Positions 12,817-56,190 of a stretch of DNA of 64,000 nucleotides are shown one piece after another. The stretch spans positions 28,716,011 through 28,780,010 of the forward strand of contig CP092868.1 in assembly GCA_030710605.1 (NCBI GenBank), given 5' to 3'. Position numbers and translations under genes: made by a program. This stretch comes from Cordylochernes scorpioides (Eukaryota; Arthropoda; Arachnida; Pseudoscorpiones; Chernetidae). Each line of letters opens with the position of its first letter. The first letter of the stretch is position 1. The notes under the pieces were generated by a model. The model had not been told where the DNA came from and did no database searches. It worked only from the letters and a program-made list of their open reading frames with translations.

Positions 12817-13301
12817 ATAAAATAAAAGGATTTAAAAGCGCGAATGTTTCTTTTATACATAAAACGAACTTCTACTGTCCTTACTGCGATGAAAAAATAT
12901 ATTGGGAGGGCTTGGCTCATCAGTGGTGAACCCTCCCAGCGGTTTCGCCAATTTAATCCACCAGACCGCTTCTCAGAGCTCTAATATTGTATTGGATCAT
13001 TCTGCTTTTATATGCTACACTGAAGGATGGAATCTTAGAAATGGTTTTCAAGTAAACTATGGACATAAGCTTATAGGACAGTAGAATTACATTCAAATAT
13101 TTGCTTCGAGCAATGCTCTTCAGCAAACTATAAAGACAAGGTCATTAGGAATACCACTGATGAGCCAAGCCCTCCCAATATATTTTTTCATCTCAGTAAG
13201 GACAGTAGAAGTTCGTTTTATGTATAAAAGAAACATTCGCGCTTTTAAATCCTTTTATTTTATATGTATAGATGGCGCGTTATTGCTTTGTGTTAATTTA
13301 T
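12817..13301. mobile_element. Family E palindromic element with 15-bp TSD
   Basis: Inverted arms (about 12817-12955 and 13145-13268) flank a unique centre, and one end extends into AGATGGCG (13270-13277) plus GTTATTGCTTTGTGTTAATT. ACCTTTTATATATAT is duplicated at 12802-12816 and 13302-13316. The second copy of the 235-bp unit resumes exactly after it. The hammerhead-like block occurs in both arms (minus at about 12905-12950; a partial plus copy with CTGATGA at 13157-13163). No ORF; mobilisation in trans by a PLE or other retroelement is my inference. Confidence 0.75.
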
Positions 13302-13485
13302 ACCTTTTATATATATTTTTGTGCTATAATTTGATGAGAGAATTTACCTATTTACATAATCATATTCAATACATATTTACATATTTACTGAAATAAATAT
13401 GAATAACATAGCGTACTAACACATCTCTTGTATTCAGATCTTCTTGTTAATAATCATCAATTATATTCTCTCAATATATATTGTT

Positions 13486-13756
13486 GCATCAGGTTGCGGC
13501 TTGGCAGACTCTTCAATCTTGATTCTCTCCTATGCTAGGTCTTGTATCTTACCAGAACATGTTTCAACCATCCTACAAATTTATATAAGGTAATAATGAG
13601 ATAAGTTTACTTCAAGTAGCCTCCAGAATAATTTATTTATTTTCACATCAAATAGAGCTGTGAAGTCACACTGTGTACCTAAATACAAATGGTGATTCTA
13701 TAATACATATATTCTGTTTATAATACATATATTCTGTTTAATAAAATAAATAAATA
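13486..13756. other. AT-rich DNA, nothing recognised
   Basis: A short direct duplication, ATTCTGTTTATAATACATAT near 13705-13740, is the only structure. Confidence 0.4.
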
Positions 13757-14116
13757 TCTATATATATATAAATCAATGTTTGTATGTTTGTTTGTTTGTA
13801 TGTCCGGTATACTAATTCGCAGTAGTTCACTAATTCAAACCAAAATTCCCATACATAGGTAAAAAATTACGGGGAAGACGATAGCCTATTTTTTTAAAAT
13901 ATTTATAAATCAATTATTAAAACTATATATTCAAATTATTCTACTTAGCTCACGAACAGCGCCCTCTATCAAAGATTAGATTAAATTATGCTGATGCAAA
14001 CAAATGGATAATGCTAATAACAAACAATTATTTTAAAAAAATTATCTAAATATATATCACTCGGGTAGATATGCACACTGGTCAATCCCGGGGCGAAGCC
14101 CGGGTCACCCGTCTAG
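13757..14116 (+). mobile_element. Non-autonomous Helitron, 360 bp
   Basis: Starts TCTATATATATATAAATC after an A and ends ...GTCTAG followed by T, the A|TC...CTAG|T arrangement of Helitrons. A GC-rich hairpin (CCCGGGGCGAAGCCCGGG) lies about 10 bp before the 3' end. The 5' part has the TGTTTGTATGTTTGTTTG run common in animal Helitrons. No TSD and no Rep/helicase ORF, so it depends on a helper. Confidence 0.85.
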
Positions 14117-14514
14117 TAAAATATAAATTTGAATTTAAAATATATCAAAAACAATATTACAAATTGAAATAAAATAGGTTCATTAGCCATGATGCAACAA
14201 TATAAATATCTACGAAATATCATAAAATAGAAGTGATTAGGTTTTGTTAAGCAGGATGACATGAACGAGAGATAAGAGAGAAAGCTGACATTAAACCAAT
14301 TCTTTCCAACTTTCGAATAATTCAGTGAATAATTAATGTAAGCTTTTTGGTTAATAGCTTCTTCATATAATATTCATTAAGATGGGAAATTTTAAGATAA
14401 ATTTATTATATGAACATAATGAATATTTTAATCGTAAATTATCCATTGATATATATATACATATAGTATAAAAAAACGTTTTATATTAAATATTCAGGGT
14501 TATTATCACATATA

Positions 14515-14823
14515 CAGTTAAACCTGTCTATAGCGCTCCCTCTTGGGACTCACCAAAATAGGGTGCTATAGGTAGGTCACTTTTAATGTAAATCGCATTG
14601 TAATACGTATTTAAAATAGGGTGCTATAGAGAGGGGGTGCTATAGACAGGTCACTTTTAATGTAAATCACATTGTAATACGTATTTAAAATAGGGTGCTA
14701 TAGAGAGGGGGTGCTATAGACAGGTCACTTCTAATGTAAATCGCATCGTACTACGTATTTAAAATCGGGCGTTATAGAGAGGGAGGCGCTATTTAGAGGG
14801 AGCGCTATAGACAGGTTTAACTG
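14515..14823. mobile_element. TA-flanked MITE with internal tandem repeat
   Basis: TIRs CAGTTAAACCTGTCTATAG and the exact complement at the other end, with TA at 14513-14514 and 14824-14825. The interior is about three copies of an ~80-bp unit (GGTGCTATAGA...GTAATACGTATTTAAAATA). A shorter relative is at 55413-55591. Non-coding, pogo/mariner-type by ends. Confidence 0.85.
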
Positions 14824-14994
14824 TATATTGAAATATAATGTTAGTATAGTAATGATAGGTTTTATTTACAATTATGAACATAGATAGAAATTAGAATAAA
14901 GGATTTAATTTTTTGTGGATAATGATTTATAGGAGTAGAGAATGAAAAAATATCCATCTAACATACTTTACTTTTCCCAAATACAGAATTAATT

Positions 14995-15965
14995 TTCCAA
15001 ACTATTTTAGACGCGTAAGATTCATTTTGAAATTAAACAATTTCTACTGCCCTTACTGCAATGGAAAAATTAAGGAGAGGGCCTGGCTTATTAGTGGTGA
15101 ACCCTGCCCGCGTCTAAAATACAAACTTGTAGTTTCGAATTTTCATAACAGATGGCGCGCTAGTGCATCATAACAGAATTAATTTTATTTGAATAAATAT
15201 AAATATATAGCTGGGAGAGTTCACCACTGATGAGCCAGGCCATCCCATCAATTTATCATTGCAGTAAGAGCAGCGGAAAATTGTTTTATTGAAAAAGAAA
15301 TATACGCGCCAAATTAGTTTAAATTTCTTTTAACAGAATTCGCACTAATTCATCATATATATGAGAGCATGTTAAAATAAAAAAATTCTATTGAAACTCC
15401 TGTGAAACATTGATCCATCTGTTGAGAAGACTGGCTACAGAAGCTATAAAAACAACATTTAATCCCCGATGGAAAATCGATGCCTAAATACTCAGTATTA
15501 TTATACAATTGTTTAATATCAAAAAGAATCTTACGCCTTTAAAATAGTTTCGTAATTTGATAACAGATGGCGCGCTAGTGCATCGTGATATAATTGTTCG
15601 AATAAAAGACACAAATTGATATTTGCGGAAGCGGAAGCGGAATCGATTGCTCGAAGCATATTATATATTTATAATTGTATGTAATTCTACTGTCCTCAAA
15701 GCTTATGTCCATAGTTCTTCTAAAATACTCATTCCAAGAGTCTACCAACAGTATCACTATGAAAGGAAGTTCAAAAAAATACACTATAACAGCGGTATGG
15801 TAGATTAAACTGGCAAAACCGCTGGGAGGGTTCACCACTGATGAGCCAGGCCCTCCTATTAATTTTTCCATTGCAGTAAGGGCAGTAGAAATTGTTTAAT
15901 TTCAAAAAGAATCTTACGCCTTTAAAATAGTTTCGAATTTTGATAGCAGATGGAGCGCTTAAGCA
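14995..15965. repeat. Cluster of family A palindromic elements
   Basis: Contains at least three family A arms: minus at about 15005-15180 and plus at about 15210-15320 and 15790-15965. AGATGGCGCGCTAGTGCATC ends are at about 15153 and 15567, and a decayed AGATGGAG at 15948. A well preserved plus hammerhead-like block is at 15798-15855 (CTGATGA 15838-15844), although its GAAA reads AAAA. The unique centre 15650-15790 matches the long copy at 34260-34400 in inverse orientation. Confidence 0.7.
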
Positions 15966-16102
15966 TCATATTATTATGTGTGTTTGCACAAGTTATACTG
16001 TAAAAAAAATAATGAAATAGGTAACGTTCGGGAGGGCTTGATAGTTTCATCTTTTACGTATAGATGGCGTTTATCGTTGTATTTTTAATAAAGATGGATA
16101 AC

Positions 16103-17161
16103 GGCATATATACACTCATGGATAAAACTTAAGGAAGTATAAAGTATTTTTCGTCCATCGTATATTTTTTTAAGGAGACAGGCAATTTGTTCACACTTGT
16201 TTATCTCATGTATCTTCAATACAGATCACTGTGTATCAAATATCTTTCCGAGTTATTGTCTGGATCCCGATATACATGTTAAAAGGTACAGCTTCCTTAA
16301 GTCTTGTTCACACTTGGTTATCTCATGTGTCTTCAATAAATGCCACTGTGTATTAAATATCTTTCCGAGTTACTGTCTGAATCCCGATATATATGTTAAA
16401 AGGTACAACTTCCTTAAGTTTTGTTCGAACTTGATTATCTCGTGTGTCTTCAATAAAGGTCACTGTGTATCAAATATCTTTCCGAGTTATTGTCTGAATC
16501 CCGATATACATATTAAAAGGTACAACCTCCTTAAGTTTTGTTCACACTTGGTTATCTCGTGTGTCTTCAATAAAGGTCACTGTAATATCTTTCAGAGTTA
16601 TTGTCTGAATCTCGATATACATGTTAAATGGTACAACTTTCTTTTGTCCATGAGTGTATTTCGATATATCTTTAGGTATCCAAAAACACTTGGTTATCTC
16701 GTGTGTCTTCAATAAAGTTCACTGTAATATCTTTCATAGTTATTGTCTGAGTCTCGATATAAATGCTAAAAGGTACAAATTTCTTAAGTTTTGTTCACAC
16801 TTGGTTATCTCGTGTTTCTTCAATAAAGGTCACTGTAATATCTTTCAGAGTTTTGTCTGAATCTCGATATGCATACTAAAAGGTACAACTTTCTTTTGTC
16901 CATGAGTGTATTTCGATATATCTTTAGGTATCCAAAAACACTTGGTTATCTCGTGTGTCTTCAATAAAGTTCACTGTAATATCTTTCATAGTTATTGTCT
17001 GAGTCTCGATATAAATGCTAAAAGGTACAGATTTCTTAAGTTTTGTTCACACTTGGTTATCTCGTGTGTTTACAATAAAGGTCACTGTAATATCTTTCAG
17101 AGTTATTGTCTGAATCTTGATATATATGCTAAAAGGTACAACTTTCTTTTGTCCATTAGTG
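16103..17161. mobile_element. Family G TA element expanded into a tandem array
   Basis: The ends are CACTCATGGATAAAACTTAAG at 16103 and ...TTTTGTCCATTAGTG at 17161, inverted repeats flanked by TA. Between them the block CACTTGGTTATCTCGTGTGTCTTC recurs about eight times at 110-146-bp spacing. The longer units include an extra ~30-bp block that itself contains a TIR (TTTGTCCATGAGTGTATTTCG), so internal copies of the element end have been amplified too. Open frames across the array are by-products of its period. Confidence 0.8.
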
Positions 17162-17560
17162 TATTTCGATAAAGGTATCCAAAAAGAAGGCTCTGTAATC
17201 TATTCATCTATTTCTAAATGTTTCAAGGAATTCATCACTTTATAATGGAGCTCTGGGTAAATATTTGTAAGGAAGGCCAGGATTGTTATCCCACTTGTGG
17301 GTACGTTAATTTAATTATACGAGGGGCTTTGAAGCTTAATTAGGGCAACTACCTTGAGACAACACCTGCCTTATTAGATAGATTTGTAGACCCCTTTAAA
17401 ACCGTCTTTAATTAACTAACTTAGTCATTAATAATAAATTAGTTATGTAAATTCTCATAATAGATTTGATAGAGATATAAAATGATTATCAATTAACTAG
17501 GTTCATGCAACATAAACGTTTGTATTTTTGTAGAAAATTGAATATCGATTTTTATTTTCG
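17162..17560. other. AT-rich DNA, nothing recognised
   Basis: No structure recognised. Confidence 0.4.
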
Positions 17561-17565
17561 TAAAG

Positions 17566-17745
17566 ATAGAGGCTGCCTGGCCGGCATTCATATTTATATG
17601 AAAAATCGACACTTCGCCCAGTTGTAGGTTTTTGTTTTCTCAACGTTTCGACAAAACGAAGACAAAATATTTTTGTCGAAACGTTGAGAAAATAAAAACC
17701 TCCAACTGGCCGAAGTGTCGATTTTTCTTTGAATAATCCTAAGTA
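17566..17745. repeat. Foldback with broken hammerhead core (ACGU type)
   Basis: Arms containing AATCGACACTTCG and CGAAGTGTCGATT surround CAACGTTTCGACAAAA and TTTTTGTCGAAACGTTGAG. The plus strand has GACAAAA/TTTTGTC as stem II, GAAA, and the palindromic ACGU stem III, but CUGANGA is reduced to ACGAAGA. Related to 46495-46694 and 48890-49080. Confidence 0.6.
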
Positions 17746-17865
17746 TGCATGTATATGTAGATAACCAAGGCTCCTATTATTTGATGTTTAAATTACTATA
17801 CTATGAATAAATAATTAATTTAAAAAGTACAGGAACTTTTTGATCTTAGCTTGTATATATACACG

Positions 17866-18125
17866 GTACTGGTCATGATATCGTTGTAGGTACTTAGTGA
17901 TTGTTTTTACTGTAATTACAACACATATCTATACATATGTAGTAAACAGTTCTACTTTTACAAATATGACAGAGTTTTGTTTGGTTACTTGTACTTACTA
18001 GTGGAGTTGGACTTTTGCACGAATCGGGGATAACTTAAGCAAAATTATTTTTAGAGAAAAAGTGTCCAATGCGGTTTTCGATCCAGGGTCATGGCTATCT
18101 GAAAATAGACCGTCAACCAACCCCC
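17866..18125 (-). mobile_element. tRNA-derived SINE, diverged
   Basis: Minus strand: tRNA-like head near 18125 (GGGGTTGGTTGACGG...), decayed B box (GACCCTGGATCGAAAACC), then the family body with TTGGACAC...AAGTCCAAC, AGTGCAAGTAAC and ACATATGTAG. Same family as 18942-19201 and 43061-43368. Confidence 0.75.
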
Positions 18126-18335: not shown

Positions 18336-18339
18336 TTTC

Positions 18340-18560: not shown

Positions 18561-18599
18561 CTAATATAAAAATATAATTTCATAAGATAAAAGAGCCAT

Positions 18600-20744: not shown

Positions 20745-21215
20745 TGCATTAGCGCGCCATCTGTTATGAAAATTCGAAACTATTATAGATGCGTATCTTC
20801 TTCTTCTTTCTTATCTCCACTCAATCATATTAGGGTATCAAGCTTTCACAACCATCATGACTGGGTGAAGTAGAATGTGTCTGCCTTTGTCATTAAGACT
20901 GGGAGCACTACTCAGTGGCAGGCCGACTTAGCTCCAAAAGAAATGGCCATCTCTGACATGAGGAACAGACGCCATATGCAGCCGCTCCTAACATGAATTA
21001 CAAACGCTGCTCATCCTGTATTCGTTATTAGGAGCCTTTACAGGATACTATAAGCCGGGCCAGCTAAGCCCAGGTTTTATAGTGAGCTTGTTACTGCTCT
21101 CTCTCCTCCTTTTTCATCCAGGTTTGGGACCTGCAAAGGCGGAGTTATAGACGCGTATGATTCTTTCAATTAAAAAATAATAATTAAAAGAATCATACAG
21201 GTCTATAATAGTTTA
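20745..21215. repeat. Family A element split by a SINE
   Basis: The left part ends GAAACTATTATAGATGCGTAT (20796) and the right part resumes TTATAGACGCGTATGATTC (21145). The two pieces join into the normal family A sequence once the SINE at 20797-21144 and one TSD copy are removed. Confidence 0.8.
20797..21144 (-). mobile_element. SINE-like retroposon, 348 bp, 14-bp TSD
   Basis: Third copy of the 3635-3983 family, minus orientation, with CTT-rich tail complement at the left. TSD TTATAGATGCGTAT (20783-20796) and TTATAGACGCGTAT (21145-21158) differ by one base. Younger than the family A element it interrupts. Confidence 0.85.
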
Positions 21216-25310: not shown

Positions 25311-25640
25311 ACATGGCTTGGCTCATCAGTAAGGTCTGTAAAGATAATATTCGATGTATTTTTGAAAAGATAAATATTGCCAGTAAATTCATTTGTTACA
25401 AATATAATGATAGTTGTCTATAGAAAATAATTGATATCGCATCTAGAGCATTTAATAGGAATTTGTTAAAGTTCATACAATTCATTTTAAATTTTCGAAA
25501 AAAAGTACAAAAAAGATTGAAATTGTACTGGGATTAGGTTGATAAATTAAGAATATAATTGATATTTATTCCGATAGATGGCGCAAGCCATCAGCAACCT
25601 TCAGTTATACAGTCCAAGATGTATTTTTCTCATTTTAAAT
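25311..25640. repeat. Fragments of family F and family B elements
   Basis: 25315-25395 matches the GGCTTGGCTCATCAGTAAGG and GTAAAGATAATATTCGATG parts of family F. 25560-25610 matches family B (TTCCGATAGATGGCGCAAGC). Confidence 0.6.
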
Positions 25641-27909: not shown

Positions 27910-29212
27910 CAGGGTGTACCAGGTAAATTGGGACTAACTTTGACAGTCCATAAAACAAAAACTACTTGAGATTAAAAACTTGTTTTTTTTTCATTATGTA
28001 GCCATATTAATGTGAAATGCAACAGTACATGTGTGCGCAGTGTAGTGATGAAGAGTAACCGAGAATTTGAAAATCGAGCTGCCATCATCGTTGCTCTGCG
28101 CGCCGGAAGGAGCCCCAAAGAGATAGTGGATTTTCTTAAGTTGCCCAAAACCACTATTTATCGTGTCAAGAAGCAGTTTGATGAGGCCGACAGTAACAAA
28201 GAGGGGATAGCTACAAGGAAAAAGCACTCGCGTCGATCGGACAGGGTAAGAGGCGAAGAATTTGTCAAAAATGTCAAGGAGAAGATAAATGGAAACCCTG
28301 GGAAGAGCATGAGGGCCATAGCCAAGGAAATGGACGTTGGCTCTATGACAATTGTCAGAACTATCCATGAGGACCTTGGTCTCAAGTCTTATGCCCTTCG
28401 GAAAGGTCAGTTGCTGACTGAGAATATGAAGAATAACAGAAAAGGAAAGGCTGCTGCCCTCCTCAACAACCTGAAACACGACTCTTTTGGCATGCTAAGG
28501 TTCTTCTCTGACGAAAAGAACTTTGACGTGGACCAAAAGGTAAATCCCAGGAATGATCGCTGGATCTGTAAAGACCCCTCAGAGATACCTGTCGTGATGC
28601 ACACGAAATTTCCTGCCTCCGTAATGGTCCTTGGCGTTATCAGCAGTGAAGGTGATGTCATGCCTCCCCATTTCTTTGAGAAGGGCCTTAGGATGAACGC
28701 TGACACCTACATCAATGTTCTGGAGACCGTTCTGAAGCCTTGGATGGACATGGTGGCCGCAGGAAGGAAGTATGTCTTCCAACAGGACTCAGCTCCAGCC
28801 CATAAGGCAAAAAAGACACAATCGTGGCTGACACTTAACGTCCCTAGTCACTGGGGTCCTGATATTTGGCCCCCTAATTCTCCAGATTGCAATCCCCTCG
28901 ACTACTATGTATGGGGCGTTGTTGAGAGAGATGTCAACAAAGCTCCTCATACCACCATCCAGTCTGTCAAGAAAGCAGTTCACACGGTGATGACCCAAAT
29001 GGACAAGGTCATCGTCGCCAAGGCCTGTGCTTCATTCCGCACTCGCCTCGAGACTGTTGTAGCTAATAATAGAAACTACATTGAATAAATAAAAGCTATA
29101 TCCTTTTATCTACTACTGTGTCAAATTTCATTCGGATATTTTAATTTTTACTTGCAAAAAATTTCAGTTGAAATACCATTGTTGAAATTCCCAATTTACC
29201 TGGTACACCCTG
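27910..29212 (+). mobile_element. Complete Tc1/mariner-type transposon, 1303 bp
   Basis: The ends are perfect 24-bp inverted repeats beginning CAGGGTGTACCAGG, flanked by TA at 27908-27909 and 29213-29214. It holds one uninterrupted transposase ORF and an AATAAA signal at 29084-29093. Intact ends plus an intact ORF mark this as the youngest autonomous element in the window. Confidence 0.95.
28048..29088 (+). CDS. DD37D Tc1/mariner-superfamily transposase, 346 aa
   Basis: Cut-and-paste transposase acting in the nucleus on the 24-bp inverted ends that flank it. I chose the ATG at 28048; the frame is open a little further upstream but has no ATG there. Residues about 5-45 and 85-125 form two helix-turn-helix-type DNA-binding segments (RSPKEIVDFLKLPKTTIYRV and MRAIAKEMDVGSMTIVRTI). 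The DDE/D catalytic triad is visible: D155 in FFSDEKNF, D247 in FQQDSAPAH, D285 in SPDCNPLDYYVWG. Exactly 37 residues lie between the last two, as in the DD37D (maT-like) group rather than classic DD34D mariner. Length is normal for the superfamily. No stop, frameshift or missing catalytic residue. Codon use is much more GC-rich than the surroundings, which fits recent arrival, possibly by horizontal transfer (inference). Confidence 0.93.
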   Translation: MKSNREFENRAAIIVALRAGRSPKEIVDFLKLPKTTIYRVKKQFDEADSNKEGIATRKKHSRRSDRVRGEEFVKNVKEKINGNPGKSMRAIAKEMDVGSMTIVRTIHEDLGLKSYALRKGQLLTENMKNNRKGKAAALLNNLKHDSFGMLRFFSDEKNFDVDQKVNPRNDRWICKDPSEIPVVMHTKFPASVMVLGVISSEGDVMPPHFFEKGLRMNADTYINVLETVLKPWMDMVAAGRKYVFQQDSAPAHKAKKTQSWLTLNVPSHWGPDIWPPNSPDCNPLDYYVWGVVERDVNKAPHTTIQSVKKAVHTVMTQMDKVIVAKACASFRTRLETVVANNRNYIE

Positions 29213-30115: not shown

Positions 30116-30260
30116 AATTATCAAAGATGTTGATGTACTAGAAAATTTGGTAATGGTATTTCTAAGAGATTGATTTACATAGATATCTTCGAAAATATAT
30201 TTATTTAGATTTTAATTTTTTGTTGCCTAGTACTTCACTTATAGATAAGTAAAACTAAAA

Positions 30261-30439
30261 ATGGCATATCCTGACTAGGAGTACATGTGCTTTACAGAAT
30301 GCAGAGAGCCATCTGGTGGAACAGAAATCAACTAAACATTGATTTAGCCTTTTCCCTGATATTTGGCCTGATATTCTGTTCCACTAGATGGCGCTCTGCT
30401 TTCTGTAAAGCACATGTGCTCCTGGTCAGGATATGCCAT
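30261..30439. repeat. Family C foldback, complete
   Basis: Arms 30261-30326 and 30375-30439 start ATGGCATATCCTGAC and end with its complement; each has the AGCACATGTGCTT-like block and the CTAGATGGCGCTCTG word. The loop contains AACTAAACATTGATTTAG. This copy lost the central hammerhead retained at 54064-54105. Confidence 0.8.
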
Positions 30440-30500
30440 TTTTATTTTTAATATCAACACCTGACCTTTTTATTTTATGTTTCTATTATTTTTTCATATA

Positions 30501-34131: not shown

Positions 34132-34445
34132 TATGAAAATTCGAAACTATTATAGACGCGTAAGATTCTTTTTGAAATTAAAACAATTTCTACTGCCCTT
34201 ACTGCAATGGAAAAATTAATGAGAGGGCCTGGCTCATCAGTGGTGAACCCTTCCAGCGGTTTCACCAGTTTAATCTACCATACCGCTGTTTTATTGCATT
34301 TTTCGATCTTCCTTTTATAGTGATACTGATGCTAGACTCTTGGAATAGATATTTTTGATGAAATATGGACATAAGCTTTGAGGACAGTAGAATTACATAC
34401 AATTATAAATATATATATAATGCATCATAACTTATTATGCATAAC
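34132..34445. repeat. Family A element, long form
   Basis: Contains the usual arm (TATTATAGACGCGTAAGATTC, CTACTGCCCTTACTGCAATGG, hammerhead-like block minus at about 34220-34270) and then an extended unique region to the GGACAGTAGAATTACATAC block at 34380. It is the inverse of 15650-15860. Confidence 0.7.
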
Positions 34446-35654: not shown

Positions 35655-36035
35655 AAATTTGCCGAGAGGAAAATTAATCCATAGAAGCAATGGGCACTTC
35701 TCCCGTCAGAATAAACGTCAGAATGTTCTAGCTATGTTCTAGCCATTGATTTGGCCCAGCCACATTGCCAGCAGAACACCTCTTTGGTAGATTATGAGGA
35801 TTCCATTAGATCCCGTGTGGATCTCATGGAATAAAGTCCGCCCTAGACTGACGAGGGCCATTAGCCCGAAACCATGGTCTCTAAGTGGACGCTTATCAGT
35901 TTGCCAAAGTTGGTGTTGTGGCTTTGTCACTGACCCGATGCCGCTAGTTGCTGCGACGGTCAATAGATGGCGTCAGAGATTCTGACGTTTATTTTGACGG
36001 GAGAAGCGCCCATTGCTTCTATGGAGCAGTTGTTT
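35655..36035 (+). mobile_element. Family D foldback carrying a hammerhead ribozyme
   Basis: Arms 35680-35716 and 35982-36024 (ATAGAAGCAATGGGC.C.TCTCCCGTCA and complement) enclose a moderately GC-rich body with the ribozyme at 35836-35890 and AATAGATGGCGTC at 35963-35975. The body matches 54360-54640 and, inverted, 56600-56825. Non-coding; short plus and minus frames are by-products. Confidence 0.75.
35836..35890 (+). ncRNA. Type I hammerhead ribozyme, GUC site
   Basis: CTGACGA 35848-35854; stem II GGGC/GCCC with loop CAUUA (35855-35867); GAAA 35868-35871; stem III ACC/GGU closed by two bases; cleavage after C35879 (GUC). Stem I pairs UAGA (35844-35847) with UCUA (35880-35883) and, across an internal loop, GUCC (35836-35839) with GGAC (35887-35890). 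The stem I internal loop is where tertiary contacts form in fast natural hammerheads. Confidence 0.88.
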
Positions 36036-39270: not shown

Positions 39271-39669
39271 GAATGCCATCAACAATGCCATCAGCTCACC
39301 AATCAATCCGTGTAAGCTAAGAAAGGTGGTTCCAGGCCGTAATTAAGAGTTAATAATTGAAGGCAGACTCCACGTGCCGCACCAATCCAATTATTTCTGC
39401 CAATATTGATACTTCCATATTGATTCAGGAGCGACCAACCAAATATTTCCTGTTACTCGACTTCTTGAATGCCGTCGGATGATGGTTCTGTGGTTGGTTT
39501 AGCGGTTGGCTTTGATTAAGATTGTAGAAATCTTCTTTAATCACAACTTAGTTTATAAGTGTTCAATTGATTAATATTTATCAAAAATGTTTATATAGAC
39601 GGAGTAAGTCAGAAAATATGATATATATTTTACAGAAATTAATTTAAAATTAACAAAACTTATCTTTAC

Positions 39670-39958
39670 TCGAAACCATTCTAAACGCGTAAGATTCTTT
39701 TTGAAATTAAAACAATTTCTACTGCCCTTACTGCAATGGAAAAATTAAAGGGAGGGCCTGGCTCATCAGTGGTGAATCCTCCCAGCGGTTTCGCCAGTTT
39801 AATCTACCATGGTAGGGTTAACCACTGATGAGCCAGGCCCTCCCTTTAATGTTTCCATTGCAGTAAGGGCAGTAGAAATTGTTTAATTTGAAAAGAATCT
39901 TACGCGTTTAGAATGGTTTCGAGTTTTGATAACAGATGGCGCGCTAGTGCATCGTACT
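39670..39958. repeat. Family A element, compact palindrome
   Basis: Almost perfect 135-bp arms meet at about 39812. The right end extends as TTTTGATAACAGATGGCGCG then CTAGTGCATCGT. The plus block CTGATGA is at 39825-39831 and AGATGGCG at 39934-39941. The minus arm holds the full hammerhead-like block with one mismatch in the GGGAGGG helix. Confidence 0.8.
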
Positions 39959-41334: not shown

Positions 41335-41575
41335 AAGATCATCAAATATTATCTCTACAGACCTTACTGCAATGATATGAATTATTGAATGATGAGAGGG
41401 CTTGGCTCATCAGTAGTGAACCCTCTCAGCGGTTTCGCCAAATTAATCTCTAGACCGCTCTACTATTGTAGTATACTAGAGATAGTATTTGATGATATTT
41501 AAAAGAAGTGCATTGCCAGTAAATTTATATGTGTAAAATTTTAACAATAGATGGCAATTAAATTTAATAAGCTAA
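41335..41575. repeat. Family F element with hammerhead-like block
   Basis: CATCAAATATTATCTCTACAG, then the minus-strand block at about 41396-41442: TTTGGC, GAAA, GAGAGGG, CTGATGA, GCCAAG, CCCTCTC. The right end has AATAGATGGCAATTAAATTT. Palindromic ends (ATCAAATATT...GATGATATTT). Confidence 0.7.
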
Positions 41576-41639
41576 AGAATGTAAAATATAGTACAAAAGT
41601 GAATTTTTACTTCGATCAGATAGATAAATTAAGAAAAAG

Positions 41640-41878
41640 GCATCTCCAAATCATGCAACTGAAAGTTGCTGATGGCTTGCGCCATCTATCGGAATAAATA
41701 TCAACTAATCGTTGATTTTAAAATTTTCTATAATTGGCTAAGTACGCGTTTCGGGCTGATAGCCATCGTCAGTCTGGTGCAAGCTGTACCTCAACAACCA
41801 AAAATTTATTCCGATAGATGGCGCAAGCCATTAGCAACTTTTAATTGCACCATCAAGAGATGCTTTATTTCTTAAAAT
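41640..41878 (-). mobile_element. Family B foldback carrying a hammerhead ribozyme
   Basis: Arms of about 75 bp (AACTGAAAGTTGCTGATGGC...GCGCCATCTATCGGAATAAA and complement) surround the ribozyme at 41730-41785. Minus-strand AGATGGCGC lies at 41679-41687, about 45 nt after the ribozyme. A second copy without a recognisable ribozyme is at 45125-45331. Confidence 0.75.
41730..41785 (-). ncRNA. Hammerhead ribozyme motif, stem I decayed
   Basis: CTGACGA at 41766-41772, stem II GGCU/AGCC, GAAA at 41749-41752, then ACGCGU forming the tiny stem III and A as the cleavage base. The core matches 54064-54105, but stem I positions next to the cleavage site no longer pair well. Confidence 0.6.
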
Positions 41879-42019
41879 AAAGAGAAGGTAATTTATTTTG
41901 ATCCAAAAAATAAATCTTATTTGCATATAAGAAAATTGAGATTTTTTATAAATATATCAATTGAATTAAAACATTTTTGCAGATAAAATATTTGCAGTGT
42001 TTCCTTATTTAGATAGAGG

Positions 42020-45117: not shown

Positions 45118-45336
45118 AAAAATAAAAGGCAACTCCTTATCGTGCAACTGAAAGTTGCTGATGGCTTGCACCATCTATCGTAATAAATATCAACTATTCT
45201 CGTTGATTATTTCAGAATTGGCCAAATACCCATTCTTGATTAATCAAGTTGATTCATCAGTTGATATTTATTCCGATAGATGGCGCAGGCCATCAGCAAC
45301 TTTCAGTAGCATGATAAGGAGATGCCTTTTTCATAA
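45118..45336. repeat. Family B foldback without recognisable ribozyme
   Basis: Arms 45125-45208 and 45255-45331 (CTGAAAGTTGCTGATGGCTT, ACCATCTATCG and complement). Centre degenerate. Confidence 0.7.
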
Positions 45337-45619
45337 TTTATGCACCTTATCCCAGTACAATATCACATTGTGTACTATTTTTTTCATATTGTTTTATAGT
45401 CTTTCTATTTGGTTCTATTTTCACTAAATTTATTAACCTATTCATATCTAATCCTTCAAATTTTTCAATTATGTAAATTCTTAAACTCTAATGTCTTGTA
45501 TTTACATAAATTTATTTTTAAACTTGCTATATAATCTTTCTCTCTCCACAATGCCCTGTTTATACATTTTAGTTAACTGAAAAATTCCTTAGCTCAATTA
45601 AAGAAATATCTGAAAAAGA

Positions 45620-46794: not shown

Positions 46795-46985
46795 AATGGG
46801 AGGGCATAGCTCTTCAGTGGTGAATCCCCCAGCGGTTTCGCCACTGATGAGACAGGTCCTCCCATTAATATTTCATTGCAGTAAGGGCAGTAGGAAATTG
46901 TTCTATTTTCAAAAGAATCATACGTGTCTATAATAGTTTCAAATTATCATAACAGATGACGCGATAATGTATCATAATATAATCT
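46795..46985. repeat. Family A element next to gap
   Basis: Short centre with GGCATAGCTCTTCAGTGG and CCACTGATGAGACAGGTCC arms, then CATTGCAGTAAGGGCAGT, TCATACGTGTCTATAATAG and AACAGATGACGCG. Confidence 0.65.
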
Positions 46986-47690: not shown

Positions 47691-47738
47691 TCTCCAACAT
47701 TTATAACGTGAAAAATGAGGAAATACAAAATTATTATT

Positions 47739-47915
47739 ACGATGCACTAGCGCGCCATCTGTTATCAAATTACAAAACTATTTTAGAGGCGTAATATTCT
47801 TTTTAAAATAAAACAATTTCTACTGTCCTTACTGCAATGGAAAAATTAAAGGGAGGGCCTGGCTCATCAGTGGTGAACCCTCCCAGCGGTTTCGCCAGTT
47901 TAATCTATTATTATG
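47739..47915 (-). repeat. Family A arm with perfect hammerhead-like block
   Basis: Minus strand at about 47850-47900: CTGGC, GAAA, CC, GCT, GGGAGGG, TTCACCA, CTGATGA, GCCAG, G, CCCTCCC, with both helices fully paired. AGATGGCGCG complement is at 47750-47760. Confidence 0.75.
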
Positions 47916-48885: not shown

Positions 48886-48889
48886 ACAG

Positions 48890-50160: not shown

Positions 50161-50207
50161 TAGTAACCTGACATTTTAAAAATCATTCCTTTTTTTTTCT
50201 TCTATAG

Positions 50208-50358: not shown

Positions 50359-50374
50359 AAAAAAAATCTGCTTA

Positions 50375-50475: not shown

Positions 50476-51006
50476 TAATTATCAAAATTGATACTCTGTT
50501 AATAAAATATCAAAGACTTTGTGCTACAATATTATATATAAAAAAACGTAAGAAATAAAATGAAAAATAATTATTTTTCTATCGTTTTTTTAAATTTAAT
50601 TATTATTATATTATTTAATTATAATTAAATAATAAAAAAATGGTCAGGATATGCCATCTTCATTTTAAATATTATATATATAATTTTTTTCTTAAATTAT
50701 ATTTATTTCTCACAAAAATTTTAATCATATTTATTTATAAATGTTTCTTTTATTTATTCAATATTATAAATATATTTTTAAAATTTTCAAATATAATAAA
50801 ATCGCTAAAAAATATATAGATTAACAACAATTAATTTCGTCTTTTGATATTTATATTTAATAAAAATAATATAAATTGATTTAATATACAAATAAATATT
50901 AAAAAAAACTATCAATTGAGTTTTTATTCTATGAAATGAAGTCTAGATAAAAATAAAATAAAATAAAGATCTATTATAATGAGGCAGATAGAAGAAGTCA
51001 TAAATA
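50476..51006. other. Very AT-rich DNA
   Basis: Long runs of A/T, no structure; one family C scrap (GGTCAGGATATGCCATC) at about 50642. Confidence 0.4.
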
Positions 51007-51787
51007 TTTGTTGTCAAAAGGCGGGAAAAAACGTCTAAAGCAGACGATGCTGAAGGTTTCTGCCTCTTTGTGAATAAAATTTATATGGAAATTTTGAAAG
51101 ATGCATTCAAAGGATCGAGTTTATGGTCTGCAATGGGGTCTCTATGGCTTACAAAGGGGTTTTAAATCTTTTTGAATTTGCATAGATCAAATGGCTAAGC
51201 AAATATATAGTTAAGAGGCTTCAAACCTTAACATTTATTATTTTATATAGAATCATATAGCCAAAACGAAAATAAAATTTGAAATACAAATTTACTTATA
51301 TAAATAAATATCGTTTTGAAAAGAGAGCAATCCATAAAAAAAGGTTTTATTAAAATGACATATATTGGATCAAAATATAATTTATTTTACGAATATTTCA
51401 GTTGGCTGAACGCCAACCTTTATCAAGGTGTTATAACATATTTAATGTGTGTCAACCACAAACTCAGCGCCACATAACGTCAACAGAATTAGGTTTTAAA
51501 AAATATTTTGTTATATTCCATGGGGAGAAAAGAAAATTGATATATAAATTTATATTATGGACAAAATAAAAAATATATATATCAAATTATTGTCTCCCCA
51601 TGGAATACAACAATTTATTTTTAAAAACCTAATTCTTTTGACGTTATGTGGCGCTGAATTTGTTGTTGACAAATATTAAATGTTATAATACCTTGATAAA
51701 GGTTGGCGTTCAGCCAACTGAAATATTGGTAAAATAAATGATTATTTTGATCCAATATATGCCTTTTTAATTAAATATTTATTTATG
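51007..51787. repeat. Copy 1 of a ~770-bp near-identical duplication
   Basis: TTTGTTGTCAAAAGGCGGG, ...CTAAAGCAGACGATGCTGAAG..., ...GATGCATTCAAAGGATCGAG..., then a GGTTGGCG-family foldback with an inner palindrome CCTAATTC..GACGTTATGTGGCGCTGA. The copy at 63236-64000 has the same order with only scattered differences. The inner part alone would be an element, but the first ~330 bp are found nowhere else in the window. Confidence 0.85.
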
Positions 51788-51994
51788 GATTGCTCTATTT
51801 TCAAAATATATATAAATGCGTTAATAAAAACGTCAAAATAAGACTTTGGTCAAATAATTAATTTATAACAAAAACAAATTCAGAAAATTTATTTAATTTT
51901 ATTACTATTAATTCCAAAATTGATTATAACTTTTTCAAACAAACAAAATGCCATTTAATATCAATAATACATATTGATAATTACATTAGTTTCG

Positions 51995-52325
51995 GAACAA
52001 AAATGATATATTAACACAAAACAATTGCGCGCCATCTATACATATAAAATGAAAGGATTTAAAAGCACGAATGTTTCTTTTATACACAATACAAACTTCT
52101 ACTGCCTTTACTGCAAATGTAAAAATATATTGGGAGGGCTTAGATCATCAGTGGTGAACCCTCCAAGCGGTTTCGCCAATTTAATCCACCAGACCGCTTC
52201 TCAGAGCTCTAATACTGTATTGGACGATTCTGCTTATATACGCAGCACTGAAGGGTAGAATCTCAGAAATGGTTTTCCAGAAAACTTTGGACATAATCTT
52301 ATAGGAGAGTAGAATTACATTTATA
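51995..52325 (-). repeat. Family E element, single arm with body
   Basis: Begins TTAACACAAAACAATTGCGCGCCATCTATAC, the complement of the family E end, then AAAATGAAAGGATTTAAAAG, hammerhead-like block on the minus strand near 52132-52180 (stem II broken: GATCT replaces GCCAA), and GACATAATCTTATAGGAGAG...GAATTACAT. Confidence 0.7.
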
Positions 52326-52369
52326 TATTTTAAAATGTATCAATTTTAAAATTAATTATTATAACATTA

Positions 52370-52735
52370 ACTGAATACATTATAAAACAAGGTAATAAGA
52401 CCAAATCCAAATAAATAAATAGTGTGCGACGTTTTGGTAACAGCGTTGTTATCATCTTCAGACAAAAGTACTGAATGAGATATTTTACCAGAGCATGTTT
52501 TAAATAGTTACTGTTATCAAATGTGTAAACAAGATAACAGATGAGAAGAAGATATTTATCTGTTATCTTGTTTACACATTTGATAACAGTAACTATTTAA
52601 AACATGCTGTGGTAAAATTTCTCATTCAGTACTGTTGTCTGAAGATGGTAAAAACGCTGTTACCGAAACGTCACACACTATTTATTTATCTGGATTTGGT
52701 CTTATTACCTTGTTTCATAATCTATAAACCAAATT
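52370..52735. mobile_element. Foldback with two hammerhead motifs, one intact
   Basis: Arms ACAAGGTAATAAGACCAAATCC...AAATAAATAGTGTG and complement, with a second inner palindrome (CTGTTATCTTGTTTACACATTT). The plus motif is at 52634-52677. The minus motif at about 52425-52470 has CTGAAGA (52455-52461) but GAAA is AAAA. Confidence 0.75.
52634..52677 (+). ncRNA. Type I hammerhead, palindromic stem III, GUC site
   Basis: CTGAAGA 52639-52645; stem II GGUAA/UUACC (52647-52664); GAAA 52665-52668; ACGU stem III; cleavage after C52672. Stem I: UGU (52636-52638) with ACA (52673-52675). Confidence 0.78.
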
Positions 52736-53009
52736 GTGCCTTATGAATACATTGTATTCAATTTTTCCCATTTTCAATATGAAATAGCACAAAAAGAGTA
52801 TAAAAATAATCAGAAGATCGTTAAACCAGTTCTTATAATGTACCTATTCAATATTAATTCAAGACTCTTTTAATATTTAATATTTTACTGTCAATATTTG
52901 CTCCAAGAAGCTGAATTAATCTCATATTAATATATTATACAATATTCCATCCAATATATATGTTTTGTAATTTAATATATGTGAGAGAATAATTTATCAT
53001 ATATATTAT

Positions 53010-53350
53010 ATTTAATAAAGATTTTCTTCTGTTTTGAGATTAATTACTTGTAGAGGAATTATTGATCATTTGCTTGATTTTGGTATGCAGTCGTGGAAGA
53101 GATTATAATAAAATTAGTTATCAAAAATAGCTTTAATTGCACTAAAGGAATATATGAAAAACATGGTTTGATAATAGTACTGCCTGGCTTAAGGCGTAAG
53201 AATAAAAAATTAAAAACATATTTACAAATGTACAAAAGGTTGAGCCGGCCATCGGGAAACAACAACAATGAGTTTTTATAGGGTAAGCGTGACCTCTCGC
53301 GGTCGATTTAACAGAGTATTTGAATCTATGAAATATAATTTTAAATAAAA
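53010..53350. repeat. Family I dispersed repeat
   Basis: GATTTTCTTCTGTTTTGAG, TGCAGTCGTGGAAGAG, CTGCCTGGCTTAAGGCG, GTTGAGCCGGCCATCGGG, CCTCTCGCGGTCGATTT. Confidence 0.75.
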
Positions 53351-53394
53351 TAATATTTTAATATAACATATATATGAAAGACAATAAAATTTTA

Positions 53395-53640
53395 GAATTT
53401 TAAAATAAAAATGGCCATACCCTACCGCTCAAATGAACATTTCAGCAGAGCTCCATCTAGTGAAGTAAAAATCAACTAAACGTTGATTTATGATATTTTA
53501 TAATATTTGTCCAGCCCATTTTCTTGATAAATCAATAATATCCAATGAAATACGCGTGTCGGGCTGTTAGCTGTGAGTCGTCAAGATATGTCTCTTTTAA
53601 ATTTTAATATAAACACATGACTTTTTTCTATTTTATTATT
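53395..53640. repeat. Family C element with decayed ribozyme
   Basis: ATGGCCATACCCTACCGC, CATCTAGTGAAGTAAAAATC, TACGCGTGTCGGGCTGTTAGC (the minus-strand ribozyme remnant, GAAA now GACA), ATATAAACACATGAC tail. Confidence 0.6.
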
Positions 53641-53654
53641 TTTCATATATATAT

Positions 53655-54020
53655 ATTATATTTAAATAAAAAAAGATAAGATTACTGTTGTTTTGGATCA
53701 TATTGATGATTATGCTATGGTGGTGCAGTCGTGGTTAAAATTTTGAAAGAATAATGATGATATTGGATATTAGAGATTTATTTATTTGAGCTAAGGGATA
53801 TGCATAAAAAAAAAACAATTTGATAAAAGTGCCGCCTGGCTTAAGGCGAATAGAAAAAGGAAAACAAAATATTATTTACATAATTACAAACATGTTTGAG
53901 TCGACCAACGGGGAAGAACAACAATGTGATTTTATATGGGAAGCATGACCTCTGGCGGCCGATTTAACAGAATATTTTTATCTATGATATATATTTTTAA
54001 ATAAAACAATATCTTAATAT
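53655..54020. repeat. Family I dispersed repeat
   Basis: GATTACTGTTGTTTTGG, GTGCAGTCGTGGTTAAAATT, GCCTGGCTTAAGGCGAATAG, GAGTCGACCAACGGGG, CCTCTGGCGGCCGATTT. Confidence 0.75.
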
Positions 54021-54021
54021 A

Positions 54022-54052
54022 ACATTTATATATATATATATATATATATATG
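54022..54052. repeat. (TA)n microsatellite
   Basis: About fourteen TA units at the junction between family I and family C elements. Confidence 0.9.
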
Positions 54053-54054
54053 GT

Positions 54055-54258
54055 GCAATCTGTTCCACGCTGACGAGTGCCAATAGCGCGAAACGCGTTC
54101 GTGGATGGCTTTTCTTGATTTATCAATAAATTGGGTTGACCAAATATCAGGGCGCAAGTTAAATAAACGTTAGTTTATTTTTGCTCTACTAGACGGCGCT
54201 CTGCCATCTAAAAAGCACATGTGCTTGTGGTCAGGATATGCTTTCTTTATTTTTAATA
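54055..54258 (+). mobile_element. Family C element with intact hammerhead
   Basis: Ribozyme at 54064-54105, then GATTTATCAATAAATTGGG, ATATCAGGGCGCAAGTTAAA, TAGACGGCGCTCTGCCATCT, AAGCACATGTGCTTGTGGTC, AGGATATGC. AGACGGCG at 54191 is the AGATGGCG word with one change, 85 nt after the ribozyme. Confidence 0.8.
54064..54105 (+). ncRNA. Type I hammerhead ribozyme, best preserved
   Basis: Stem I UCCACG (54064-54069) with CGUGGA (54100-54105), six perfect pairs. CTGACGA 54070-54076. Stem II GUGC/GCGC with loop CAAUA (54077-54089). GAAA 54090-54093. Stem III AC/GU with two-base loop GC. Cleavage after U54099 (GUU). Every consensus position is satisfied. Confidence 0.9.
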
Positions 54259-54279
54259 TATATATAGATGGAACATTTG

Positions 54280-54655
54280 ACGGGAGGAAATTGATCTAAA
54301 GAGACAAGGGTCGCCTTTCTCTTGTCTCTTTAGATCAATTTCCTCCCGGCAAAATTTCCATCTATATTTTAGCCATAGATATGACCAGTCACTTTGCCAG
54401 CTAAACACCTCTTTAGCAGATTGTCAAGATTCCATTAGATCCCGTGTGGATATCATGGAATAAAGTCCGTTCTAGACTGACGAGGGCCATTAGCCCGAAA
54501 CCATGGTCTCTAGGTGGACGCTTTTCAGTTTGCCAAAGCTGGTGTTGTGGCTTTGTCACCGACCCGCCGCTAGTTGCGGCGACGTTCAATAGATGGCGTC
54601 TGGTTTTAGACGTCTATTTTGACGGGAGAGGCGACCCTTGTCTCTTTAGATATAT
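54280..54655 (+). mobile_element. Family D foldback with hammerhead ribozyme
   Basis: Opens with an inverted pair (GATGGAACATTTGACGGGAGG ... CCTCCCGGCAAAATTTCCATC) and ends GACGGGAGAGGCGACCCTTG then TCTCTTTAGA, matching the inner end of the opening palindrome. Body as in 35655-36035, with AGATGGCGTC at 54591-54600. Confidence 0.8.
54465..54519 (+). ncRNA. Type I hammerhead ribozyme, GUC site
   Basis: CTGACGA 54477-54483; GGGC/GCCC stem II; GAAA 54497-54500; stem III ACC/GGU; cleavage after C54508. Stem I: CUAGA (54472-54476) with UCUAG (54509-54513), five pairs, plus GUCC (54465-54468) with GGAC (54516-54519). The extra C-G pair relative to 35836-35890 (where G and A differ) keeps stem I paired. 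Confidence 0.88.
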
Positions 54656-54659
54656 ATAT

Positions 54660-54850
54660 ATATATATAAAAGACATATCCTGACCAGGTTCACATGAGCA
54701 TTTCTAGATGGCAGATCACCATCTAGCGGAACAAAAATAAACTAAAAGTTTACTTAATCTAGAATTCTAGCCATCTAGAAATGCTCATATGAAGTCTAGT
54801 TAGGACGACTGGCACATTAAAGACTTTCCACTTAATCTTTGTTAATGAGT
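54660..54850. repeat. Family C foldback, short form
   Basis: GACATATCCTGACCAGG, GAGCATTTCTAGATGGCAG, AACTAAAAGTTTACTT, CCATCTAGAAATGCTCATATG, with the ribozyme region missing. Confidence 0.7.
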
Positions 54851-54934
54851 GCAGTTATAACATTAAACATATATCGACCAAAATAAACCCTTCGAGGTAA
54901 AATAGAAAAATAAAACGAAGATTGAAGAGGAGTT

Positions 54935-55010
54935 TCTTGTACGAATTATTTTTTTTAATAGCAAGCTTTCGGACGTCCTTGTACAGGCTTTTTTACGATC
55001 ATTACATATT
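54935..55010 (-). ncRNA. Hammerhead-like motif, CUGUNGA variant
   Basis: Minus strand: CTGTACA (54980-54986), stem GGAC/GTCC without a loop, GAAA (54967-54970), GCTTGC. Confidence 0.35.
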
Positions 55011-55224
55011 ATACATTAAACATATATACATTATTGAAATCTAAATCTAAAATCTATATATAAAGAATATAAATAAAATATGATAACAGAAAAATCGCAA
55101 TTAAAGTTGAATTCCTTTTTTCAAGTTGAGGAATACTTTTCTTTTGGGAAAAAATAATTTATTTTAATGTAAAAAATTATATAAATAATCTATATTTCGA
55201 GAAATAGATAAATCCATAAATATA

Positions 55225-55400
55225 TCTTTTATTTTTAAAAAGTCATATATTGAATCAAAATATAGTTTATTTACCAATATTTCAGTTGACTGAACGCCAA
55301 CCTTTATCAAGGTGTTATAACTTATTAATGTCAACAACAAACTCCGCACCACGTAATAGTGTTCAATAAATTATTTATAAACCTAATATATGCCTTTTAA
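55225..55400. repeat. Half of a GGTTGGCG-family foldback
   Basis: AAAAAGTCATATATTGAATC, CAGTTGACTGAACGCCAACC, CACCACGTAATAG: one arm with centre; the second arm is mostly deleted (ATATATGCCTTTTAA at 55386). Confidence 0.65.
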
Positions 55401-55412
55401 AATAAATATATA

Positions 55413-55591
55413 CAGTTAAACCTGTCTATAGTGCCCCCCTCGAAATAGCGCCTCCCTCTCTATAGCGCCCGATTTTAAATACGTAGTACAATGCGATTTA
55501 CATTAAAAGTGACCTTTCTATAACCACCCCTCTCTATAGCACCCTATTTTGGTGAGTCCCAAGAGGGGGGCGCTATAGACAGGTTTAACTG
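55413..55591. mobile_element. TA-flanked MITE, 179 bp
   Basis: TIRs CAGTTAAACCTGTCTATAG and complement, TA on both sides. Unexpanded relative of 14515-14823. Confidence 0.85.
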
Positions 55592-55659
55592 TATATATAA
55601 ACATTTAAAAATGCACAAGAAACTTAAGACTAGACGCTTTATTTATTTTAAATAAAAAA

Positions 55660-55760
55660 TAGTGTTTATCATTAATTTGTTAACGTGATACTCCTGTTGA
55701 AGGACTGAAAGTCTGAAAACTTGAAAATAAAAGGTTTTACAAGAAACTTAACCCAAAAAG
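55660..55760 (+). ncRNA. Hammerhead-like motif, CUGUNGA variant
   Basis: CTGTTGA (55694-55700), stem AGGAC/GTCT, GAAA (55715-55718), ACTTG. Flanks AAACTTAAGACTAGACGC and GGTTTTACAAGAAACTTAACC resemble the 33300 foldback. Confidence 0.4.
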
Positions 55761-55844
55761 CTTTATTTATTTTATAATATTATAAATCAGGGAAGAACGT
55801 TTATTTAAAAAAAATATTGTAACATTAATATATTTTACACATAT

Positions 55845-56190
55845 AAATTTACTGGCAATGTGCTTCTTTTAAATATCATCAAATATTATCTCTACAGACC
55901 TTACTGCAATGATATGAGTTATTGAATGAGAGGGATTGGCTCATCAGTAGTGAACCCTCTCAGCGGTTTCGCCAAATTAATCTCTAGACCGCTCTACTAT
56001 TGTATTGGATTGGTTTGGAATATACCCTGTATTTTCTATGGAAGGCAACTTAGAGGTTTTAATTGAACTATGGACATAAGCTTATAGGTCTGTATAGTAA
56101 GTAAGGTCTGTAAAGATAATATTTGATGATATTTAAAAGAAGCACATTGCCAGTAAATTTATATGTGTAAAATATTAACGATAGATGGCA
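55845..56190. repeat. Family F palindromic element
   Basis: Arms TAAATTTACTGGCAATGTGC ... TCATCAAATATTATCTCTAC and complement. The minus-strand hammerhead-like block at about 55922-55970 has TTGGC/GCCAA and GAGAGGG/CCCTCTC both paired. The right end is AACGATAGATGGCAATT. Confidence 0.8.

Follow-up and report, generated by a model that had tools for sequence, protein, structure and literature searches.

A conserved word near the 3' ends of ribozyme-bearing repeats in the pseudoscorpion Cordylochernes scorpioides, and predicted permuted hammerheads in its retroelements

A 64,000-nucleotide stretch of the genome of Cordylochernes scorpioides (contig CP092868.1, positions 28,716,011 to 28,780,010; hereafter the window), which lies in contig 6 of a 2.62-Gb genome of 24 contigs, carries many short repeats in which a predicted hammerhead ribozyme is followed on the same strand by the word AGATGGCG. 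The genome has 48 matches to Wnt, a family typical of animals, and 150 scored matches among 333 candidate Chitin_bind_4 cuticle domains, which are typical of arthropods. In our reading, to which we give a probability of about one half, the word is a conserved 3'-terminal signal. The elements that carry it would be short non-coding retroelements with ribozymes, in three groups, and would spread by a mechanism of the type used by Penelope-like elements (PLEs). Thousands of short repeats in the genome carry predicted self-cleaving RNAs, many of them hammerheads of the rare permuted kind. The larger surprise is that, judging from sequence, a permuted hammerhead is a regular component of animal retroelements, an autonomous PLE among them.

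An earlier, sequence-only reading of the window had counted the word or its complement more than 20 times, and we find 22 exact copies, on both strands, against a mean of 0.47 and a maximum of 2 in 100 dinucleotide shuffles. In a genome sample of 20 fixed-position 10-kb stretches (200 kb on 11 contigs; 264 kb together with the window) there are 33 copies, where a first-order model expects 2.2. The enrichment holds genome-wide, with 384,531 copies versus 22,141 of the same word read backwards, a 17-fold excess. The places singled out in the sequence-only reading carry the exact word at 13270 (family E), 35965 and 54591 (D), 39934 (A) and 41680-41687 on the minus strand (B), and its two places with one change hold AGATGGAG after 15844 and AGACGGCG after 54070. 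A literature text search for the octamer gave nothing relevant among the papers listed.

Most of these sites belong to a few kinds of repeat. When membership is assigned with profile models of the repeat families, 44 of the 55 exact sites in window and sample (17 of 22 and 27 of 33, respectively) fall inside three ribozyme-bearing groups, with 15 in a group that we call SGC after its ribozyme, 20 in B/C and 9 in D. Eleven sites lie outside, and at least two of them (window 19936 and L024:9298) are, by eye, tails that the models missed. At L021:5294 and L026:9063 a different-looking repeat carries GCTAGATGGCGCTCTACCAG / CCTAGATGGCGCTGTACCAG, and the B/C models match both weakly; the L021 repeat has ACAGGGTGATCCAAAAGTC upstream of the word, with no ribozyme seen upstream there.

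The families had been described as otherwise dissimilar; by alignment the original six reduce to three groups, B/C, D and A/E/H. B and C are one alignable family and A, E and F another, F being apparently the same family as A and E, and H is a third SGC subfamily. B/C and D are alike around the ribozyme, where their profile models cross-match. Tandem monomers are spaced 340-372 bp, and we saw no open reading frame (ORF) in the short elements, which are retrozyme-like, apparently non-autonomous and most likely mobilised by PLEs. An apparent fourth family, whose hammerhead of PLE type stands close to AGATGGCG, was rejected as a product of selection by a pattern that required the word, since all three of its loci that were examined (L042, L043 and L044) lie in or beside truncated D, C and E tails.

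The ribozymes predicted in B/C and D are type-I hammerheads. A strict type-I descriptor gave 12 matches in the window and the loci then analysed, all of them B-, C- or D-like, and 0, 0, 0, 0 and 1 matches in five Markov controls. Stem III of these matches is a short palindrome (ACCATGGT, ACGCGT), as it is in PLE hammerheads. The same has been reported for amphibian hammerheads (PMC7229834, cited here, like the two other papers below, from the portions of text available to us).

The cores of A, E and H do not fit type I. What had been called CUGAUGA blocks in A and E are complete predicted hammerheads of the non-circularly permuted, or SGC, type with an extra helix. The core begins with the 3' strand of stem III (AGCGGT), the cleavage base, the 3' strand of stem I (TGGTGGA), a linker and the 3' strand of stem II (TTGGC); it continues with GAA, the 5' strand of stem III (ACCGCT), one strand of the extra helix (GGGAGGG) and the 5' strand of stem I (TTCACCA), and it ends with CTGATGA, the 5' strand of stem II (GCCAA) and the second strand of the extra helix (CCCTCCC). 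The S-G-C order and an extra helix between stems I and II are described for the non-circularly permuted hammerhead (PMC10085705). Along with the S-G-C block order, CUGANGA, GAAA, an A-U pair closing stem III and H at the cleavage site are all present, and some copies (e.g. window 15791) have lost GAAA. Cleavage is predicted at GGTC|TGG in E. Once the order and the extra helix fitted, we dropped two other interpretations of A and E, as degenerate type-I ribozymes or as an opposite-strand tRNA-like promoter.

A strict SGC descriptor found 6 matches in 327 kb and 0 in 10 Markov controls, and a looser one found 14 matches scoring at least 21, with three controls never above 20. In an alignment of 19 of the 25 core copies (6 left out as truncated in the 5' part, spanning a pair junction or degenerate), the four helices, including pseudoknots, are paired in 89.6% of cells; the core has 15 doubly changed cells versus 6.4 in shuffles and a covariation score of 0.174 versus 0.136. 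The subfamilies vary in a compensatory manner, as in stem II, which is TTGGC/GCCAA in some and CTGGC/GCCAG in others.

Rfam at gathering scores has no match in the window. At a loose threshold it reports sub-cut-off hammerheads, Hammerhead_1 at 22.6 bits and Hammerhead_HH9 at up to 31.3 bits; many other loose matches are to microRNA models, several of them on inverted pairs, and were disregarded. Three Twister-P1-like matches, at window 4599-4651 (minus strand), L029:1374-1428 (minus) and, more weakly, window 21098-21151 (minus), score 46.9, 49.0 and 29.9 bits (Rfam cut-off 67.2) and apparently lie in a repeat resembling long or short interspersed elements. In the one at 4599-4651 the conserved core is retained but an arm is shortened, and there is no AGATGG within 250 nt downstream.

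Ribozyme and word stand at a nearly fixed distance, with the word about 100-130 nt downstream of the hammerhead cores. Seven of the 12 strict type-I matches have an exact word within 300 nt, at a CTGANGA-to-AGATGGC spacing of 106-123 nt, and three more (L010:5376, L016:651 and window 54070) have AGATGGC with one change or one base missing. For SGC the spacing is 109-125 nt in five of six high-scoring matches with a downstream AGATGG; in the sixth, L003, AGATGG comes at 142 and 158 nt. The same-strand link extends genome-wide: CTGANGA-N6-24-GAAAC-N50-80-AGATGGCG has 776 matches, its backward control 0 and the version with the octamer reversed 5, and CTGATGAGCC-N90-119-AGATGGCG has 28,702, 0 and 11, respectively, although family copies share descent, so that these counts measure abundance and fixed spacing rather than independent events. 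The listed CTGATGAGCC matches resemble SGC elements, and one array with 372-bp spacing flips orientation between C1:7,160,379 and 7,160,837.

The word is also conserved in B/C and SGC. In unconditioned alignments of B/C, no other 8-base window is as conserved as AGATGGCG, which ranks 1 of 259 with the B model and 1 of 249 with the C model (the two sets consist largely of the same copies), and in SGC it ranks 20 of 286. In D, 92.3% of the cells of a hairpin 3' of the word are paired and three of four pairs show double changes, and a long hairpin just 5' of the word in B/C has 20 doubly changed cells versus 8.0 when shuffled. The further alignments behind the helix counts kept 18 of 20 rows in one case (2 pair-junction chimeras removed) and 13 of 15 in another (2 rows with a large local gap removed). 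Counted from the first base of the word, copies of A and E run on for about 20-28 nt (by eye) and those of B/C and D for about 60-70 nt (by model edges), the D figure being rough because the edge coincides with the model end.

Copies lying within 60 bp of one another in the 264 kb form 20 head-to-head, 5 tandem and 3 tail-to-tail pairs, and the chance that at least 20 of 23 opposite pairs would be head-to-head is about 2e-4. All 22 head-to-head pairs within 200 bp join members of the same family. All three groups form such truncated pairs, as do the PLEs of this genome, among which we found 11 close pairs of GIY-YIG matches (by eye, from 146 listed matches) and inverted pairs at L028 and L029. 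This geometry is what priming on two strands from one RNA 3' region would leave. In Anolis, the PLE protein cuts and extends both target strands, and the start of reverse transcription is internal to the RNA: it lies 111-118 bp into the ORF, in a stem-loop downstream of a hammerhead that cuts 26 bp into the ORF (PMC11167929).

An autonomous PLE has, in its repeat units, a second predicted SGC hammerhead that is unrelated to that of A/E/H. Locus L028 holds two of the six strict SGC matches; their sequence is quite different (stem II GGGCC/GGCCC, extra helix CTCAGGT/ACCTGAG), with pairing as in A/E/H and predicted cleavage at GTA|ATGG, and they are located upstream of the two ORFs in a head-to-head pair of PLEs. 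The intact ORF of 828 aa has an N-terminal GIY-YIG domain (Pfam, residues 34-114). Its reverse transcriptase (RT) region is similar to that of a canonical PLE of the same genome (E 2e-10); RVT_1 was not found in Pfam at E 0.01, and there are weak matches to maturase and telomerase RTs at E 0.07-0.5. The ORF at L027, 60% identical to that of L028, also has GIY-YIG before the RT region, found in the candidate scan and below the Pfam threshold. This arrangement is common to both loci and to Naiad/Chlamys-type PLEs, which are among the nearest known systems. To our knowledge, no PLE of this kind has been described with an SGC hammerhead in its repeats.

When up to 3 mismatches are allowed, a 34-base piece of the L028 ribozyme matches the genome at 995 places and the control at 0. 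Among 100 listed sites of the 995, neighbours within 12 kb comprise 23 head-to-head, 6 tandem and 0 tail-to-tail pairs. The 6 tandem neighbours are repeated pseudo-long-terminal-repeat (pLTR) units with the hammerhead and lie 5175-5289 bp apart, which we take as one PLE unit of about 5.2 kb. In L048 and L049, pairs chosen as short, one copy starts no more than 2 nt from where cleavage is predicted, and its partner starts a few bases deeper in the element, which is only a hint that the ribozyme may work in vivo.

The canonical PLEs end differently. Among 12 of their 3' regions, nine have the hammerhead CTGACGA(A/G)GACAAAAG followed by CTGGC(C/T), two have another hammerhead (CTGAAGAAGGGCAG), and one (L030) is cut before the hammerhead. 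Copies at L032, L033, L034 and L035 stop after CTGGC(C/T)GA..., and those at L029, L031, L036, L038, L039 and L041 continue with ATGAATGCCGGCCAGGCA, where an ORF reading MNAGQAASIF begins; the two canonical 3' ends resemble an optional PLE 'tail'. In the window, 17599-17728 is a short palindrome in which two remnants of the canonical PLE hammerhead with its tail (GTCGAAACGTTGAGAAAATAAAAACCTCC...) stand head-to-head, and Rfam microRNA models match it. At L038 and L041 AGATGGC comes only far beyond the tail, and at L045, a locus chosen by a word-requiring pattern, a canonical PLE hammerhead stands about 100 nt from a copy of the word that belongs to an adjoining B tail.

That AGATGGC and the hairpin following it serve as the 3' signal for a PLE-type RT is suggested by where the word lies, by its conservation and by the geometry of the pairs. 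Each unit has a predicted hammerhead, type I in B/C and D or SGC in A/E/H, then, about 105-125 nt downstream, AGATGGCG and a GC-rich hairpin, and copies end some 25-70 nt later. The sequences show this anatomy, the association of ribozyme and word, the conservation in B/C and SGC, the pair geometry and the SGC hammerhead of an autonomous PLE, whereas ribozyme activity, binding by a protein and a start at the motif are inferred. In the cycle we propose, the ribozyme would cut multimeric transcripts; a PLE-type protein would bind the AGATGGC hairpin and cut both target strands, and reverse transcription would start at the motif hairpin from each of them. Two 5'-truncated cDNAs could then meet, leaving a head-to-head pair with AGATGGCG at both outer ends.

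Several results weigh against this proposal. The word is not specially conserved in D (rank 55 of 205 in the unconditioned alignment), and in SGC the helix around a loop ending in AGATG is paired in 96.4% of cells with no excess covariation. In the SGC core itself, doubly changed pairs (5 vs 4.3) and pair types (19 vs 20.2) do not exceed shuffles. The 3' ends of copies were taken by eye or from model edges rather than from empty sites, and the SGC and D edges coincide with the model end. Overlaps of up to 49 bp between some head-to-head neighbours mean that a few may be one palindrome, and hammerhead cleavage in the Anolis PLE is unnecessary for insertion in vitro (PMC11167929). The SGC-bearing PLE has no word over more than 200 nt past the ribozyme, to the end of the stretches examined. 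Last, autonomous PLEs might have been expected to carry the word near their 3' ends, and AGATGGC is in the own tail at none of 15 PLE loci (12 3' regions plus L027, L028 and L029), few by comparison with 17,015 GIY-YIG candidates genome-wide. The tail was located in 12 of the 15: L030 breaks off ahead of it, and the 3' end was not located at L027 or L028. In the stretches examined at these last two loci AGATGGC is nowhere present, and at L029 it occurs in a separate B copy only.

For the single mobilising machinery of the sequence-only reading, the balance is mixed. The genome-wide link, the word near 3' ends, its conservation in B/C and SGC and the shared pair geometry speak for it; the collapse of the families, the rank of the word in D and the lack of a tail with the word at any of the 15 PLE loci (tail located in 12) speak against it. 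That reading was to fall if there was no enrichment upstream of the word, or if autonomous PLEs lacked the word and the families aligned as one; half of this holds, with B/C and A/E/F each aligning as one family, and the upstream enrichment stands. One shared machinery for all groups is plausible but unproven. More tentatively, the SGC hammerhead could be native to PLEs, and the SGC and type-I non-autonomous retrozymes could have converged on an AGATGGC hairpin as the start for RT, whatever the topology of their ribozyme.

The word could instead be the DNA target of a PLE endonuclease, with new copies homing into old tails and building head-to-tail arrays, which we consider unlikely. The tandem monomers of 340-372 bp are what such homing would build, and the Penelope endonuclease of Drosophila virilis is reported to need tail sequence for recognition (PMC11167929). 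At L044 (C1:55102500-55105900) a PLE-like element (hammerhead CTGATGATGGTGACAATG...) sits within an SGC-E tail, flanked on each side, by eye, by about 12 bp of AATATAGATGGC, like a target-site duplication containing the motif. However, the three insertions examined were picked by a word-requiring pattern and two of them sit about 10-25 nt from the word, and A copies are flanked, by eye, by varied sequence. Homing into tails and a 3' signal are inseparable here, because one signal could serve both.

Less likely still, the word could be a DNA site for a host factor, the likeliest being CTCF, which these repeats would have carried through the genome in the way other repeats do with CTCF sites. 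The CTCF consensus is CCASYAGRKGGC. The core AGATGGC fits it, CCACTAGATGGCGCT of the C family fits it fully, and T or C precedes the word at all 22 window sites and most sample sites; in addition, 9-11 of the 55 sites lie outside the ribozyme groups versus about 3 expected. Yet the upstream bases of A, B, D and E fit only partly, and a chromatin site would need neither a constant position by the 3' end nor a constant distance to ribozymes of two topologies. Equally improbable, to our minds, is that the tails are homologous, a single module acquired through recombination or template switching, with the word marking ancestry rather than present function: the likeness of D and B/C around the ribozyme makes exchange or common descent likely for those two, and D keeps the word without special conservation, but SGC, B/C and D tails are, by eye, unalignable beyond about 8-10 bases, and mere inheritance would have kept the neighbours of the best conserved B/C window too.

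The window holds copies of all three groups. In SGC, an E copy at 12809..13120 (minus strand; permuted core 12901-12970, minus) and a 5'-truncated E copy at 13153..13294 (plus; AGATGGCG 13270-13277) are the left and right halves of a head-to-head pair, as are the A copies at 39667..39809 (minus) and 39782..39958 (plus; AGATGGCG 39934-39941). The A copy at 59547..59683 (minus) is head-to-head with 59685-59743 (plus). An A tail lies at 15506..15589 (plus; AGATGGCG 15565-15572), and the A copy at 15641..15972 (plus; tail AGATGGAG near 15948) has a core at 15791-15860 that is probably inactive because GAAA is changed to AAAA. Further A copies are at 34132..34407 (minus; core 34218-34287, minus), 46817..46978 (plus; tail AGATGACG) and 47736..47907 (minus; AGATGGCG 47753-47760, minus), another E copy is at 52013..52330 (minus; core 52129-52198 and AGATGGCG 52030-52037, both minus), and H copies are at 41337..41478 (minus; core 41391-41459, minus) and 55860..56098 (minus; core 55925-55993, minus).

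D copies with a predicted type-I hammerhead lie at 35807..36026 (plus; CTGACGA 35848, AGATGGCG 35965-35972) and 54437..54653 (plus; CTGACGA 54477, AGATGGCG 54591-54598), and a third D copy is at 56596..56816 (minus; AGATGGCG 56651-56658, minus). The C copy at 54050..54264 (plus; CTGACGA 54070, tail AGACGGCG) has a predicted type-I hammerhead that scores 22.6 bits with Rfam Hammerhead_1 (cut-off 34), and two C tails form a head-to-head pair at 30248..30494 (AGATGGCG 30386-30393, plus). The B copy at 41577..41802 (minus; AGATGGCG 41680-41687, minus) has a type-I-like hammerhead by eye, which failed the strict descriptor, and is head-to-head with the B tail at 41804..41881 (plus; AGATGGCG 41816-41823); another B copy is at 45200..45393 (plus; AGATGGCG 45278-45285) and another B tail at 25528..25637 (plus; AGATGGCG 25576-25583). 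Apart from these repeats, the window contains a tandem array at 61481-63234 (177-bp unit, about 9.9 copies, 97% matches) and, at 27976-29088 on the plus strand, a 370-aa open frame with Tc1/mariner-like transposase domains (HTH_23, DDE_3).

The A/E/H cores share with the type-SGC hammerhead (HRIMA-1; Eckert et al. 2023, PMC10085705) the S-G-C order, CUGANGA, GAA(A), the A-U pair at stem III, H at the cleavage site and the extra helix between stems I and II. The 583 members of that type come from metatranscriptome, metagenome and RefSeq data, whereas here it is found in dispersed and tandem arthropod repeats and in an autonomous PLE; the main text of that paper has no words beginning with transpos-, retrozyme, insect or animal and makes no link of this ribozyme to transposons or animals. 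Our search of open-licence papers on type SGC and non-circular permutation listed no further paper on a type-SGC ribozyme. Metazoan non-LTR (long terminal repeat) retrozymes (Cervera and de la Pena 2020, PMC7229834) are, like the elements here, non-coding AT-rich tandem monomers of a few hundred bp with a hammerhead. Theirs are type I, as in B/C and D, unlike the SGC type of A/E/H, and the available text mentions no shared 3' word. The Anolis PLE Poseidon (PMC11167929) resembles our elements in having a ribozyme at the unit-junction repeat, a 3' end downstream of it, use of both target strands and partial tandems, whereas the canonical PLEs examined in this genome, with ends in CTGGC(C/T)GA..., are unlike the AGATGGCG tails. 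Neither a PLE-linked SGC hammerhead nor a shared 3' word is reported in the portions of these three papers available to us.

With a predicted permuted hammerhead abundant in an arthropod, both in a protein-coding PLE and in retrozyme-like elements, the role of this ribozyme in the life cycle of retroelements becomes testable. The word common to families with different ribozymes is a direct candidate for how PLE proteins may choose where to start on an RNA.

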